DNA of 64,000 nt, taken from the NCBI GenBank assembly GCA_021772015.1, contig JAETNS010000002.1, positions 1 to 64,000 of the forward strand, given 5' to 3'. Positions 3,381 through 61,417 of the stretch are shown here, one piece after another. Positions within the stretch are counted from its first letter, which is position 1. Each line of letters starts with the position of its first letter. The notes beneath the pieces were generated by a model, which saw only the letters and a program-made list of their open reading frames with translations, did not search any database and was not told the DNA's origin. The translations under genes were made by a program, and so were the position numbers. The stretch is from Prevotellaceae bacterium. Its GTDB lineage: Bacteria; Bacteroidota; Bacteroidia; Bacteroidales; Muribaculaceae.

Positions 3381-3476
3381 AAAACTCTCGCAGATTACGC
3401 GGATTACGCAGATTACCATCCGGGTTAAACCATAAATGGATAATCTGCGTAATCCGCGTAATCTGCGAGAGTTTTT
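3381..3476. repeat. Family A palindromic repeat, copy 1
   Basis: A long inverted repeat. The left arm (3381-3413) contains CTCTCGCAGATTACGCGG and the right arm (3441-3475) is its near-perfect reverse complement. The loop holds CCATCCGGGTTAAAC. Runs of A and T flank the stem, so transcripts in both directions end in a stem followed by U residues. It lies 23 bp beyond the leuS stop codon and probably serves as its terminator. Nothing else is seen between 3240 and 3498 except the probable promoter of the upstream-facing secreted-protein gene. Confidence 0.9.
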
Positions 3477-6306: not shown

Positions 6307-7245
6307 TTATTTTGACATTTCCAGCATCCTGTCTATCGGACGGATGGCCTTGGCGGCTATTTCAGGATCAACCTCGATAGCCGGAGAAAGATCGCGGAGG
6401 CAGTCACGCAGCTTTTCGAGGGTGTTGAGTTTCATATAGCTGCAATTGTTGCAGGCGCATCCGGCTTCCTCGGGAGGGGCGGGGATGAAACTCTTGCCGG
6501 GACATAGCTGACGCATCTTGTGGAGTATGCCGCTCTCGGTGGCGACAATAAACTCCTTGGCGTCACTCTCGCGGGCGTAATCGAGAAGGGCCGCTGTCGA
6601 TCCTACCTTGTCGGCCAGCAATGTGACCGCTTTCTTGCATTCGGGATGGACAAGAAGCTTCGCTCCGGGATGTTGTTTCTTCAGGTCTATGATGGCCTTT
6701 AGGGAGAATTGCTCATGCACATGGCATGCGCCGTCCCAAAGCAACATGTCGCGACCTGTCTGGCTGTTGATATAGTTGCCGAGATTCCTGTCGGGTCCGA
6801 ATATTATCTTCTCATCCTTTGGAAGCGCGTCTACTATCTCCTTGGCGTTTGAGGAGGTCACCACAACATCGGTAAGTGCCTTTACAGCGGCAGAGGTGTT
6901 GACATAGCTCACCACGGTATGGCCGGGATGGGCTTTGACGAATGCCTCGAACTCATCGGCCGGACAGGAGTCGGCAAGCGAGCATCCGGCCTCCATGTCG
7001 GGTACCAGCACTGTCTTGTCGGGACAAAGTATCTTGGCGGTCTCACCCATGAAATGGACCCCGCACAGCACTATGAATTTGTTTGGCAACGTGGTCGCTT
7101 TCCGGGCCAGGGCAAGTGAATCGCCTACCACATCCGCAAGATCCTGTATCTCACCTTCGGTATAGTAATGGGCCATGATAGCCGCGTCACGCTCCTTTTT
7201 GAGCCTTCTGATCTCCTCGACAAGCGCCTCTTTCTCCTTTTCCAT
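6307..7245 (-). CDS. nadA: Quinolinate synthase A
   Basis: Condenses iminoaspartate with dihydroxyacetone phosphate to quinolinate in de novo NAD synthesis, using a [4Fe-4S] cluster. The family signatures GVHFMGETAKILCP, DMEAGCSLADSCPADEF, GACHVHE and the C-terminal GCACNNCSYM are all present, so the cluster-ligand cysteines are intact. The frame is open to an ATG at 7269. The start is placed at the ATG at 7245 (312 residues), because a promoter-like TTTG-N20-TAATTTTG (7309-7278, minus strand) would put the transcript start only about 4 nt before the upstream ATG. No nadB or nadC is adjacent. leuS follows after 9 bp. Confidence 0.95.
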   Translation of the reverse strand: MEKEKEALVEEIRRLKKERDAAIMAHYYTEGEIQDLADVVGDSLALARKATTLPNKFIVLCGVHFMGETAKILCPDKTVLVPDMEAGCSLADSCPADEFEAFVKAHPGHTVVSYVNTSAAVKALTDVVVTSSNAKEIVDALPKDEKIIFGPDRNLGNYINSQTGRDMLLWDGACHVHEQFSLKAIIDLKKQHPGAKLLVHPECKKAVTLLADKVGSTAALLDYARESDAKEFIVATESGILHKMRQLCPGKSFIPAPPEEAGCACNNCSYMKLNTLEKLRDCLRDLSPAIEVDPEIAAKAIRPIDRMLEMSK

Positions 7246-7277
7246 CTTGTGATTTAATGGATTATACATTCAGCAGA

Positions 7278-7592: not shown

Positions 7593-8993
7593 TCAGAGGC
7601 GAGAGAATTTGTAGGCGAAGCCGATGGAAAGGATCTCCTTGAACTGCCAGTGTCGCCATGAGGTGTCGGCGACCACCGGGGCCTGGGAGTCATAACGCAG
7701 ATGTGCGAAAATCTTGGCCGACATGAAACGGTTGATGGAGAAATCTATGGTATTCTCCCAGTCACCTTGCAAATAATGGTAATCGGTGAAAGCAAACAGA
7801 CGCGAGTAGTAGGTGATGTTATATGTCATCTTCCATTTGAATGTTACCTCCACAGAGGAACCGTACTCGCTCTTCGACTTCTTGCCGGGATCTATGCCAA
7901 ACGCCTCCGGATTGAGGTTGGGATTGGTGCAGGTCTTCAGATTGTAGCTCAAAGGAGCTATCGAACTGGAAAACTGGACGGTTTTTCGGGGATTCTCGTA
8001 TGTATAGGTAAGACCGACACCGACATTCAGTTCCGACGGCGACAAGAAAGCGGCTATCATCTCGTCGGAGTTGACCTTGTAACTGTTGAGCAGCTGTGTC
8101 TTGAACTGGGCGGTGATAGAATAGTACCAGTTGCGGGCAGCTTTCAGACCGAATTTGGAATTGACCTGAAACAGGTCCTCCGATATGTTGTATTTATGGA
8201 TAGAGTCTTCAGGGGCGTTGTTAAGTCCCAATTTGTAGGATACAGTCGTATCAAATATGATATTGGGATTGAACTTCGGATTCAGCTTTATATTATACAA
8301 CGCGCCGATGATCATATTGAGGTTTGAGGTTCCTCCCTGATACCAGTTGGGAGAAATGTAAGCTTGTGAAAAATGTAGTGAGCCGTCAAATGTATGGAGC
8401 CAGTTGATCCTGTCAGGCACGATTTCCGGTACCACCTGTTTCATCGAGTCGACCGGTGCCTCCTTGAACTCCTCGACCGTTAGTTTGGCTGTCGACGGAT
8501 CAAGATGCATGACAAATTTCTTTGGAGGACGCGGCATCGTGGCCATGTTGTAGTGGACGATCTCCGGCATCTCCGACATCACCTGCTGCATGAAATAACG
8601 CTGACGGTAATTGCGCTTGACAAGCCTGTTGAAAAAAGAGTCGGGCTGTCCCTCCTCGGGTAACTCTTCGGTCAGAGGATTCCCGGCTTTCTCCGACAGG
8701 AACATGTCAAATTTGTCGAACACCATCGGCAGGTAGAAGATCTCGTTGTACATCATGTCGGAGACATTGAGGGTTGTGTCGACAGGCACAGTCATTCCCG
8801 GCAACACCACCATGCCTCCCTGCGAGTCGGAAGGAACCACTACCGTCTCTCCGTCGACAATCAGCTCGTCGAATAATGACTGGGCGTGCATTTCTTCAGT
8901 GAGAAAAAACACACATCCTGAAAACATTGATAAGAAAAACATCCCCTTCATAAGGACGGACAAAATGTATCTGGAAACCATGGAAGAATACAA
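7593..8993 (-). CDS. DUF3078 family outer-membrane protein
   Basis: A 466-residue protein. The N-terminus is a hydrophobic signal sequence (about residues 10-37, ending in MHAQS). A low-complexity region follows, then a C-terminal half from about residue 195 (DGSLHFSQAYISPNWYQGG) made of alternating beta strands that ends in aromatic FAYKFSRL, as expected for an outer-membrane beta barrel. The S-Q-A-x-x-S-x-N-W-x-x-G-G signature is typical of DUF3078, a Bacteroidetes family of unknown role. A TAACTTTG -7 box lies at 9010-9017 on the minus strand. An alternative start is the ATG at 8981. It borders the candidate replication origin. Confidence 0.85.
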   Translation of the reverse strand: MYSSMVSRYILSVLMKGMFFLSMFSGCVFFLTEEMHAQSLFDELIVDGETVVVPSDSQGGMVVLPGMTVPVDTTLNVSDMMYNEIFYLPMVFDKFDMFLSEKAGNPLTEELPEEGQPDSFFNRLVKRNYRQRYFMQQVMSEMPEIVHYNMATMPRPPKKFVMHLDPSTAKLTVEEFKEAPVDSMKQVVPEIVPDRINWLHTFDGSLHFSQAYISPNWYQGGTSNLNMIIGALYNIKLNPKFNPNIIFDTTVSYKLGLNNAPEDSIHKYNISEDLFQVNSKFGLKAARNWYYSITAQFKTQLLNSYKVNSDEMIAAFLSPSELNVGVGLTYTYENPRKTVQFSSSIAPLSYNLKTCTNPNLNPEAFGIDPGKKSKSEYGSSVEVTFKWKMTYNITYYSRLFAFTDYHYLQGDWENTIDFSINRFMSAKIFAHLRYDSQAPVVADTSWRHWQFKEILSIGFAYKFSRL

Positions 8994-9030
8994 TCGGTTT
9001 ATCGTACTGCAAAGTTACTCCATTTCCGGG

Positions 9031-9491
9031 TCATCCACAACCTCCCCGGTCAGGTTTTCAACATTCTTTTTTTAAAGAAGGAGGTAACGGAAAAGAAAAA
9101 CGAAGTTTTTTTGAAAACCCTCATCAAATCCTCCTGAATAATAAAGCATGTTGAAAACCTCCATAACTTTCAGTCTTATTTTTTGCATTTCCGGCTTATC
9201 AATATCAGGTTGATTTGTTTCAACATACTATCAATATAAACCATACTGCAAATCAATATATTACATGTTTATCAACATAGTGTTGACAACTTTATCAACT
9301 GATAACTTTATGGTTGTCAACTATTGATAAACCTCGAAAAACAGATTGAAACAACCGCTGAAAACTTTCCTACGGGATATTTGGATATGCCTTTTGATCT
9401 CTTTATACAAATCCTGTATCTGATTCTCCAACATATTCCCCGAAATCTTCCCATCCATTTTTCAACAGGGTTTTCAACACACTTTTCAACA
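9031..9491. other. Candidate chromosomal replication origin (DnaA-box cluster)
   Basis: The 674-bp gap 8994-9667 has no gene. It is strikingly AT-rich and carries five exact copies of the nonamer TTTTCAACA: 9055-9063, 9459-9467, 9471-9479 and 9483-9491 on plus, and 9149-9157 on minus. The last three plus copies are spaced exactly 12 bp apart. Related boxes are TTATCAACA (9269-9277), TTATCAACT (9292-9300), GTTTCAACA (9217-9225) and TCATCCACA (9031-9039). By a simple count at equal base frequency, about 0.003 exact copies would be expected in this length on both strands. The boxes differ from E. coli TTATCCACA at one to three positions, mostly two. This is the architecture of an oriC. The assignment is an inference from sequence only. 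Confidence 0.55.
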
Positions 9492-9533
9492 TAGATTTCT
9501 CACACCGATTCCGAAATATATATTTTGGAAATA

Positions 9534-9606
9534 ACTCTCGCAGATTACGCGGATTACGCAGAAAGCCATCCGGATGGAATCTGCGTAATCCGCGTAATCT
9601 GCGAGA
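9534..9606. repeat. Family A palindromic repeat, copy 3
   Basis: Arms TCTCGCAGATTACGCGG (left) and the exact complement (right), separated by AAAGCCATCCGGATGGAA. It lies between the DnaA-box cluster and the 3' end of lpdA and may terminate the glycine cleavage operon transcript before it enters the putative origin. Confidence 0.9.
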
Positions 9607-31721: not shown

Positions 31722-32204
31722 ATGACAAATAAAATTCAGTGGCTTGTCGATGGTGATGTTTCGCTTCCCGCATTTGATTCCATCCCTGATCTCGATTTGG
31801 ATTTTGTCGGGAGATGGCTCGATAGGGTAGGGGAGAACCATGGCCGGATGATCGGCGAGCTTAGCTACATGTTTTGCGATGACGAGAAGATCCTTCATGT
31901 CAACCGGGAGTTTCTTCAGCATGACTATTATACCGACATCATCACTTTCGATTATTGCCGTGGTAAGTTGCTGCGGGGAGACATGGTGATATCTGTCGAT
32001 ACTGTGGCGACCAACGCCGAAGCTGTCGGTGCGACTTTCGACCGTGAGCTTCTCAGGGTTATTGTCCACGGGCTGTTGCATCTTTGCGGTATAAACGACA
32101 AAGGTCCCGGTGAACGTGAGATCATGGAGTCGCACGAGGATTCCGCCTTGGCGTTGCTTGATGACATGATGACGCAGGAGAAAGGAAAGGAGGCGGAGTC
32201 ATGA
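31722..32204 (+). CDS. ybeY: Endoribonuclease YbeY
   Basis: 160 residues from the ATG at 31722 ([12 protein letters not shown]). In-frame sequence continues upstream to 31683 without a family match. The metal-binding motif is [20 protein letters not shown]. The first two histidines of H-x3-H are present, while the third canonical His (GYDH in other phyla) is replaced by a GIND stretch, as appears usual in Bacteroidetes. YbeY acts in 16S rRNA 3'-end maturation and ribosome quality control. It overlaps mnmG by 4 bp. Confidence 0.92.
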
Positions 32205-34162
32205 TTTTCGATTTTGATGTGATCGTGGTCGGCGCGGGGCATGCCGGCTGCGAGGCCGCTTCCGCTTCCGCACGGCTTGGTGCTGAGACCTTGCTGATCA
32301 CGATTGATCTTAACAAGATTGCGCAGATGAGCTGCAATCCCGCCGTGGGCGGTATTGCCAAGGGACAGATTGTGCGTGAAATAGACGCTTTGGGCGGTCA
32401 GATGGGTATTGTGACAGACAAGTCCTCGATACAGTTTCGTATACTCAACCGCTCGAAGGGGCCGGCGATGTGGAGTCCCCGCGCACAATGTGACCGCATG
32501 AGATTCTCTGCCGAATGGCGGCATATCCTTGAGAATACAGACCACTTGTCTTTGTGGCAGGATGATGTCAAGGAGTTGATTGTCGACACCGGCGAGGATG
32601 GGAAAAGCTTTGTAAAGGGGGTTGTCACCAATCTTGGCGTGACTTTCCGGGCTAAGGCTGTAGTGCTTGCGAACGGCACATTCCTGAACGGCCTGATGCA
32701 TATCGGGCGCACACAAATACCTGGCGGCCGCACAGCCGAGCCTGCGAGTACAGGGCTTTCCGGCCAGTTGCGCAACCTTGGATTCAAGGTCGACCGGATG
32801 AAGACCGGCACCCCCGTCCGTATCGATGGACGCTCCGTCAAATGGGAGCATACCGTCGCGCAGCCTCTTGAAGATGACTTTCATCGGTTCTCTTATCTCA
32901 CTGATGTCAGACGCGATCTTGGACGGCGCGAGTGCATGATGGTATACACCAATGAAAAGACCCATGAGGTGCTTCGCCGAGGGCTGCCTGATTCCCCTCT
33001 TTACAATGGCCAGATACAAAGTATCGGTCCGCGTTATTGCCCCTCCATAGAGACGAAGATCGTGACCTTCCCTGACAAGACAGAGCATCAGTTGTTTCTT
33101 GAGCCGGAAGGAGAGACCACGACAGAATTCTATCTCAACGGTTTTTCCTCCTCTCTCCCGATCGACATCCAGCTTGAGGCATTGCAGACCATCCCGGCTT
33201 TTGAGGAGGTGAGGATCCTCCGTCCCGGATATGCGATCGAATATGACTTCTTCGACCCGACCCAGCTGCGTCATACCCTGGAGACAAAGATTGTCGCCGG
33301 ATTGTTCTTCGCAGGGCAGATCAATGGCACCACCGGCTATGAGGAGGCTGCGGGCCAGGGACTGCTTGCGGGGATAAATGCGGCGAAAAAAGCACTCGGT
33401 GGGGAGGAGTTCACTCTTGCCCGTGATGAGGCTTATATCGGTGTTCTTGTCGATGACCTGGTGACAAAAGGGGTCGATGAGCCTTACCGAATGTTTACCT
33501 CCAGAGCAGAATACCGTATTCTTCTGCGTCAGGATGACGCTGATATGCGCCTTACCGGGCGGTCTCATTCGATAGGACTCGCTGATGACCGCAGGATGGC
33601 TCTTGCTGATGAGAAACGTCGTCTACGTGATTCCCTGATTGAGTTCATCGAGAATTTTTCTGTGAAGCCATCGATCATGAATGAAGCGATCGCGTCACTT
33701 TCACCCGAACGTCTGTCAGAACTTGGCTGTCCGATGGAGAATGTGGAGTTTCCCCATCCCAATGGTTTCCCTCTGGCTCCTCTGAAAGAGGGGTGCAAGC
33801 TCGTCTCTCTTTTGTTGCGCCCGGCATTGAGTCTTGAATTGCTTGCCGCCGTTATCGCGCCTCTTTCCCGCGAGCTTGACGCTCTTCCGGCTGACCGCCG
33901 TGAGGAGATCATGGAGGCGGTGGAGGTGCTGGTAAAATATGGCGGTTACATCCGGCGCGAGGCACAGCTGGCCGAGAAACTGAAGCGTCTTGAGGCGGTT
34001 CCGCTGGGCGACCGTTTTGACTATGGTTCTTTGGCCTCCTTGTCGATTGAAGCCCGTCAGAAACTTTCCCGCATCCGCCCGGAGAATGTCGGACAGGCAT
34101 CCCGCATTCCGGGTGTCTCCCCGGCGGATATAAACATCCTCTTGCTGCTTTCAGGCAGATGA
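32201..34162 (+). CDS. mnmG: tRNA uridine-5-carboxymethylaminomethyl modification enzyme MnmG (GidA)
   Basis: 653 residues. The FAD-binding N-terminus [15 protein letters not shown] is followed by [24 protein letters not shown], the [15 protein letters not shown] segment, and the C-terminal helical MnmE-binding domain ending with [16 protein letters not shown]. With MnmE it installs the cmnm5 group at U34 of several tRNAs. Its ATG overlaps the ybeY stop. A parS-type palindrome follows 9 bp after the stop. gidA is a classic origin-proximal gene. Confidence 0.98.
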
Positions 34163-34170
34163 GAAAAAGA

Positions 34171-34190
34171 GTTGTTCCACGTGGAACAAC
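34171..34190. other. parS-type centromere site (ParB-binding palindrome)
   Basis: The perfect 20-bp palindrome GTTGTTCCACGTGGAACAAC. Its central 16 bp (34173-34188) are TGTTCCACGTGGAACA, which fits the widely conserved ParB/Spo0J parS consensus TGTTNCACGTGNAACA without mismatch. It lies in the mnmG-apt gap, directly after mnmG. Chromosomal parS sites generally cluster near oriC. A simple mRNA hairpin is the alternative, but a match to the full consensus by chance is very unlikely. Confidence 0.85.
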
Positions 34191-34834: not shown

Positions 34835-35095
34835 CCTCGCAGATTTTTCTGATGGGATAAAATCTCTCACGGATTACACGGATTACGCAGATTTTGCGGA
34901 TAGGATAAAATCTCTCGCAGATTACGCGGATTACGCAGATTTTTCTGATGGGATAAAAACTCTCGCAGATTACACGGATTACACAGATGCCATCCGGATG
35001 GCTAATCTGTGTAATCCGTGTAATCTGCGAGAGCTTTTTGATCATAGTCTGCGAAAGCTTTTATGATCATAATCTGTGAGAGGGTTTTTCCTGTC
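34835..35095. repeat. Family A palindromic repeat, copy 4, with 48-bp tandem array
   Basis: The 462-bp gap 34773-35234 is dominated by this element. Three left-arm units start at 34855, 34903 and 34951, exactly 48 bp apart (GGATAAAA + CTCTC..GATTAC.. arm). The third runs into a complete hairpin at about 34958-35036 with central GCCATCCGGATGGC. Decayed right-arm copies follow to about 35090. No gene was found. A 48-bp period lacks stops in one frame, which produces a spurious 16-residue protein repeat. Confidence 0.9.
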
Positions 35096-61331: not shown

Positions 61332-61417
61332 AGTCTCGCAGATTACGCGGATTACGCAGATGTCATCCGGGTTAAACATGATTGATAATCTGCGTAATCC
61401 GCGTAATCTGCGAGACT
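61332..61417. repeat. Family A palindromic repeat, copy 5
   Basis: Arms AGTCTCGCAGATTACGCGG and complement, loop with CATCCGGGTTAAAC as in copy 1. The 365-bp gap 61132-61496 between convergent genes holds the sus terminator, this repeat and short GAGCGCAGCGAACCG-like remnants (61432-61450). Confidence 0.9.

Follow-up and report, generated by a model that had tools for sequence, protein, structure and literature searches.

Background

Chromosomal replication origins (oriC) of the kind described in E. coli and B. subtilis are built from clusters of nonameric DnaA boxes next to DNA that melts easily. Base-specific contacts of E. coli DnaA are made by residues 399, 423, 432-435 and 438-439, and the fifth position of the box is the one without importance for this protein (PMC5043019). 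In Bacteroidetes, oriC commonly lies far from the dnaA gene, according to PMC4755523, which also reports a predicted oriC for chromosome 1 of Prevotella intermedia OMA14. Among the papers listed by our searches of the open-licence literature, we saw none linking oriC to nadA, the quinolinate synthase gene, and none fixing the position of a Bacteroidales oriC by a conserved gene neighbour.

Here we examine a 64-kb stretch of DNA (the window) from a draft Muribaculaceae genome of 2.86 Mb in 48 contigs. A first-pass annotation made from the letters of the window had pointed to a probable chromosomal origin near 9 kb. The present analysis supports that claim, and we hold with high confidence that positions 9001-9530 are the DnaA-dependent oriC of this chromosome. 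The assignment rests on same-strand box pairs that are unique in the genome, on a conserved place upstream of nadA (boxes in 13 of 13 same-genus genomes), and on a switch of GC skew at that place in six of six relatives; a perfect parS-type site 25 kb away and a low computed melting energy are also counted in its support.

Cluster of putative DnaA boxes and its surroundings

The nonamer TTTTCAACA occurs exactly at 9055(+), 9149(-), 9459(+), 9471(+) and 9483(+), so the annotated count of five exact nonamers within about 440 bp, three of them phased at 12 bp, is borne out by the letters. Where 9001-9530 has five copies, dinucleotide shuffles of these 530 bp average 0.042, and not one of 5000 reaches five. 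The whole window holds seven copies against 0.46 expected from its shuffles, the two outside the cluster being at 8627(-) and 16686(+). The pattern TTTTCAACA-N0-10-TTTTCAACA, with both boxes on the same strand, has its only exact match genome-wide in 9001-9530, and the same is true of the broader same-strand pattern TTWTCMACA-N0-30-TTWTCMACA. In the 244 kb that were read of the window's contig (C13) there are 17 TTWTCMACA sites; the richest 600-bp stretch, with six, starts at 9055, no 600-bp stretch outside 8.6-9.5 kb has more than one, and a second cluster is absent.

The layout of the putative origin can be read as outer boxes, unwinding element, central boxes and triple. The outer box-like sites are at 9055..9063 on the plus strand (TTTTCAACA also in the related genomes G007 and G012, TTTTCAACG in G013) and at 9149..9157 on the minus strand (TTATCAACA in G007 and G012). 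The central cluster, 9269..9332, is the stretch best conserved when the window's genome (G000) is aligned with G007, G012 and G013, and consists of TTATCAACA at 9269(+), the one copy of this form within 9055-9491, TTGTCAACA at 9281(-), TTATCAACT at 9292(+), TTGTCAACT at 9314(+) and TTGATAA at 9324. The triple of TTTTCAACA occupies 9459..9491 on the plus strand; G007 and G012 have an identical triple with identical spacing, and G013 has none. With TCATCCACA at 9031, the further box variants that had been proposed (TTATCAACA, TTATCAACT and TCATCCACA) are all in place.

The description of the region as AT-rich, gene-free DNA also holds, AT content being 0.66 over 9001-9530 and 0.73 over 9200-9330. 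A candidate DNA unwinding element, 9201..9310, has the lowest computed melting energy of the region: the 100-bp stretch at 9211, which overlaps the central cluster, requires 112.2 kcal/mol (mean 143.3) and ranks seventh among 6390 overlapping stretches in the 64 kb, lower values being reached around 53.3 kb and 45.7 kb. The E. coli-type box TTATNCACA has no copy in 9001-9530; a departure from the E. coli consensus had been annotated. No run resembling the DnaA-trio was found there either, apart from a lone TAATAA at 9139; DnaA-trio repeats are not known to be a universal requirement of oriC.

To the left, the region is flanked by leuS, nadA (6307..7269, minus strand; PF02445, E 4.4e-124) and a gene for a DUF3078 protein (7593..8993, minus strand; PF11276); to the right, by lpdA and the genes for the glycine-cleavage P-protein and lipoate ligase, other glycine-cleavage genes being assigned by eye. 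The statement that all genes on the left point away from the region stands for leuS, nadA and the DUF3078 gene and would fail for two plus-strand open reading frames if these are genes. These frames, 1526-2059 and 2189-2554, were called mechanically (at least 120 aa), lie to the left of leuS and point at the putative origin. The proposed neighbours at a distance of 25 kb were both found: mnmG occupies 32201-34162, and a perfect parS-type site, TGTTCCACGTGGAACA, occupies 34173..34188 on the plus strand, starting 10 bases past the end of mnmG.

Just after the boxes, at 9536-9606, there is a perfect 27-bp inverted repeat of 9-bp units with the core GATTACGCGGATTACGCAGA. Repeats with this core are also seen at 3393-3463, 34920-34939 and 61341-61408 of the window. 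The 20-bp core of the repeat has 24 copies genome-wide, often as facing pairs and unevenly spread: nine on C13, all in its first 101 kb, nine on C35, four on C2, and one each on C37 and C39.

Conservation within the genus

Comparison with related genomes, one of the checks suggested together with the annotation, was done for 13 of the 14 genomes of the genus, the window's own included and G011 left out. In each, TTWTYAACA and TTWTCCACA sites were counted as boxes over some 700 bp (658-701) upstream of nadA or, where the DUF3078 gene intervenes, upstream of the latter. Boxes are kept in all 13 genomes, with 2-12 per interval against 0.053 expected from the same-genus background (47 boxes in 620 kb). 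The DUF3078 gene stands between nadA and the boxes in four of the 13, namely the window's genome, G007, G012 and G013, and the complete box layout, including the triple with its 12-bp spacing, is common to the first three of these. The landmark of the locus is nadA rather than lpdA or the DUF3078 gene.

A search for the box-pair pattern in 61 genomes found pairs in 14, nine of them from the same genus (the window's own among these). In seven of the nine the pair adjoins nadA or the DUF3078 gene. It lies elsewhere in G003 and in G010, where it is inside leuS; both genomes have boxes upstream of nadA as well as their displaced TTTTCAACA pairs, G010 just two of them.

Two features of individual genomes were seen along the way. 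The displaced pair of G003 (locus L009, G003:C45:12767-15795) is directly upstream of a gene that, from its sequence, encodes a putative ParA-like ATPase. The nadA match of G004 (G004:C11:781859-782818) has two in-frame TAA codons, and the assembly or the gene may be faulty.

GC skew in relatives

Because gene orientation strongly distorts raw GC skew, we used third-position GC skew averaged over both coding strands. Six genomes from five families were sampled in stretches: G109, a single contig, and G087, represented by a 3.31-Mb contig out of three, both of the window's family (genus g14); and G290, G305, G318 and G365, single-contig genomes from four other families, with ten stretches each. 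The skew check that had been proposed gave the same answer in each of these single-contig or near-complete genomes: at the orthologous nadA locus, negative skew gives way to positive in six of six.

In G109, 11 of the 12 computable stretches before nadA are negative (one further stretch was uncomputable, and the nadA-centred one is left out), and 11 of 12 past it, from 1.39 to 2.66 Mb, are positive; two near-zero stretches (-0.031 and +0.008) are near the expected terminus. In G087, again leaving out the nadA-centred stretch, all 15 stretches of the left half are negative and 14 of the 16 of the right half positive. On the contiguous piece around nadA the cumulative G-C minimum can be placed more closely. 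It falls at 1,376,725 in G109, 3.5 kb from the start of nadA (1,380,241), and at 2,945,817 in G087, 1.6 kb from the start of nadA (2,944,214, minus strand). For the four other families together, all 18 computable stretches on the left are negative and all 14 on the right positive, one at just +0.001; this count leaves out the four nadA-centred stretches and four uncomputable ones. Raw skew in the same set has exceptions, two on the left and one on the right in G318 and one on the right in G365.

The neighbourhood of nadA seems to have marked the origin in all six relatives sampled over long contigs; fragmentary same-genus stretches of G002, G007 and G004 have no clear skew switch at nadA.

These data bear on the possibility that the boxes form a DnaA titration or reactivation site near the origin, not at it. 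Sites of both kinds are known, datA for titration and DARS for reactivation, and box clusters by themselves are no proof of origin firing; moreover, the skew minimum in the 244 kb read of the window's contig is 113 kb from the boxes. We nevertheless consider a datA- or DARS-like site very unlikely, given that same-strand box pairs are found nowhere else in the genome, that an easily melted segment is located inside 9001-9530, and that the orthologous place is where skew changes sign in four other families and, in G087 and G109, is 1.6-3.5 kb from the skew minimum.

The region upstream of nadA across the Bacteroidales

A nadA gene was found in 141 of 147 genomes of the family and in 274 of 299 genomes of the order. 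The upstream region, taken as the 1.5 kb before nadA and a further 60 bp, was studied in named loci derived from the best 80 nadA matches; five of these, in which less than 1.2 kb separates nadA from the start of the locus, were dropped, leaving 75. In these 75 of the best 80 loci, TTWTCMACA occurs 175 times in 117 kb upstream of nadA and 119 times in 765 kb elsewhere, roughly a tenfold enrichment. The reversed motif, used as a control in the same 75 loci, occurs 17 times in 117 kb and 34 times in 765 kb; this threefold enrichment indicates that base composition accounts for part of the tenfold one. At least one TTWTCMACA is present upstream of nadA in 67 of the 75 named loci, and at least two in 52. 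There is no box upstream of nadA in the remaining eight of these best-match loci, Prevotella denticola among them; one of the eight, L153, is the G013 locus, whose boxes sit beyond the DUF3078 gene. When the search is widened to TTNTNMACA, the commonest forms upstream of nadA in the best-80 loci are TTATCAACA (103), TTATTAACA (60) and TTTTCAACA (52), with TTATCCACA found five times. The most frequent box, TTATCAACA, has A in place of the C of E. coli.

Besides the boxes, the named loci (L153-L232, from the best 80 matches) show strong enrichment of 9-mers around GCAAAGTTAATAACTTT in the region upstream of nadA: AAGTTAATA is present in 42 of 72 loci (35-fold) and GCAAAGTTA in 57 of 72 (13.5-fold). 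These 9-mers may unite an element of a promoter with one of the origin.

Occurrence upstream of nadA in 67 of 75 best-match loci is also what one would see if the sites were operators through which a regulator controls transcription of nadA and the DUF3078 gene, their proximity to the origin being incidental. In the same vein, directly upstream of the DUF3078 gene there is an element TAACTTTGC, which we take to be a promoter element. Operators would have to be reconciled with a spread of the sites over 0.4-0.5 kb, and with four genomes in which the DUF3078 gene, about 1.4 kb long, parts nadA from the boxes while the boxes stay with the intergenic region; the skew switch, too, would require a separate cause. 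An operator role of this kind is more improbable still than that of a titration site, and the boxes are best regarded as parts of an origin.

GC skew in the contig of the window

Within the window or C13, the skew is too weak to place an origin at the boxes and, taken by itself, leans against one there. Only 9 kb of C13 lie to the left of the boxes, so that one side of the locus is out of view. Over the 244 kb the cumulative G-C minimum is at 122,135; the strand-averaged third-position means of 20-kb segments range from -0.113 to +0.038 between 0 and 120 kb and from +0.083 to +0.161 beyond. Compared with G007, the segment at 87-129 kb is reshuffled in parts; the weak skew may reasonably be put down to rearrangement near the origin, though this is unproven.

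That the origin of this species has moved, for example to the vicinity of 122 kb, and that the boxes are a relic is the least credible of the alternatives, for although the skew is consistently positive only past its minimum at 122,135, no box cluster is present near 122 kb, the best 600-bp stretch among the 17 boxes of the contig is the one at 9055, the box layout is almost identical in G007 and G012, and the shuffling of 87-129 kb can explain the weak skew.

The DnaA initiator

The sole PF00308 match of the window's genome, its DnaA, is on another contig, C38. A search for DnaA boxes at the dnaA gene itself found no TTWTCMACA in its 3.5-kb locus. For G087, a distance of 1.05 Mb separates nadA from the DnaA match, assuming a circular contig.

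The recognition helix of this DnaA reads SRNYATVIHG, and its RNYATV motif aligns with RDHTTV of 8btg, presumably the B. subtilis protein. Other members of the family have R[NST][HY][AS]TV (all ten read, out of 58). In other families of the order, 30 DnaA loci divide into 27 with KDH[AS]TV and three with RDH[AST]TV, and outside the order RDH[AST]TV was found in all ten read, out of 59. Scores against PF08299 are 68.5-88.3 bits in the family (59 of 59 genomes); in a sample of the order's other families, scores exceed 88.3 in 55 of 58 genomes and are 87.8, 75.8 and 35.1 in the remaining three, the lowest coming from a 123-residue frame.

The changed helix residues are, by our assumption, 433-435 in E. 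coli numbering. A helix that has diverged at base-contact residues would fit a shifted box preference, although it does not prove one. We put forward, tentatively and with more doubt than assent, the idea that initiator and origin of the Muribaculaceae rewrote their recognition code together, the helix Asp of RDH/KDH giving way to Asn, Thr or Ser and the nadA-side origin moving towards TTTTCAACA boxes. Boxes with A at position 6 are commonest also in the named loci, among which are Bacteroides and other families with relatives that keep KDH in DnaA, so the change of Asp alone cannot explain this base. If the idea is true, the family possesses its own initiator-origin pair, partly orthogonal to those of other bacteria, within an oriC position shared by the order at the side of nadA.

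Proposed mechanism and significance

In the species of the window, DnaA binding, unwinding and firing can be pictured as follows from the arrangement of sites. DnaA would bind the TTTTCAACA and TTATCAACA boxes of the outer pair (9055 and 9149), the central cluster (9269-9332) and the triple (9459-9491), in which the 12-bp spacing would correspond to about one helical turn per step. A DnaA filament would then melt the adjoining AT-rich segment at about 9200-9310; helicase loading would follow, and two forks would depart.

The gut is rich in Bacteroidales. If their origin is tied to nadA and carries a lineage-specific box, the position of oriC could be predicted, and put to the test, in many draft genomes, and estimates of growth rate from read depth could improve. 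An altered initiator with altered boxes would, in addition, be a natural pair for studying the evolution of DnaA specificity.

Comparison with known replication origins

The locus is very probably an oriC of the ordinary DnaA type, distinguished by its lineage-specific box and its nadA neighbourhood. With origins of the E. coli and B. subtilis type it shares clustered 9-mer boxes in both orientations, an adjoining AT-rich and easily melted segment, a skew switch (here in relatives) and a nearby parS. It differs from them in that its commonest boxes, TTATCAACA and TTTTCAACA, have A at position 6 and are not TTATNCACA, in its location beside nadA, not dnaA, and in the absence of a clear DnaA-trio run. 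The predicted oriC of P. intermedia OMA14 chromosome 1 is similar in that boxes cluster at a skew transition of a Bacteroidetes chromosome, at a great distance from dnaA; unlike the origin proposed here, it was predicted with E. coli boxes, one mismatch being allowed, and no neighbour gene is named in the available portion of the report (PMC4755523).
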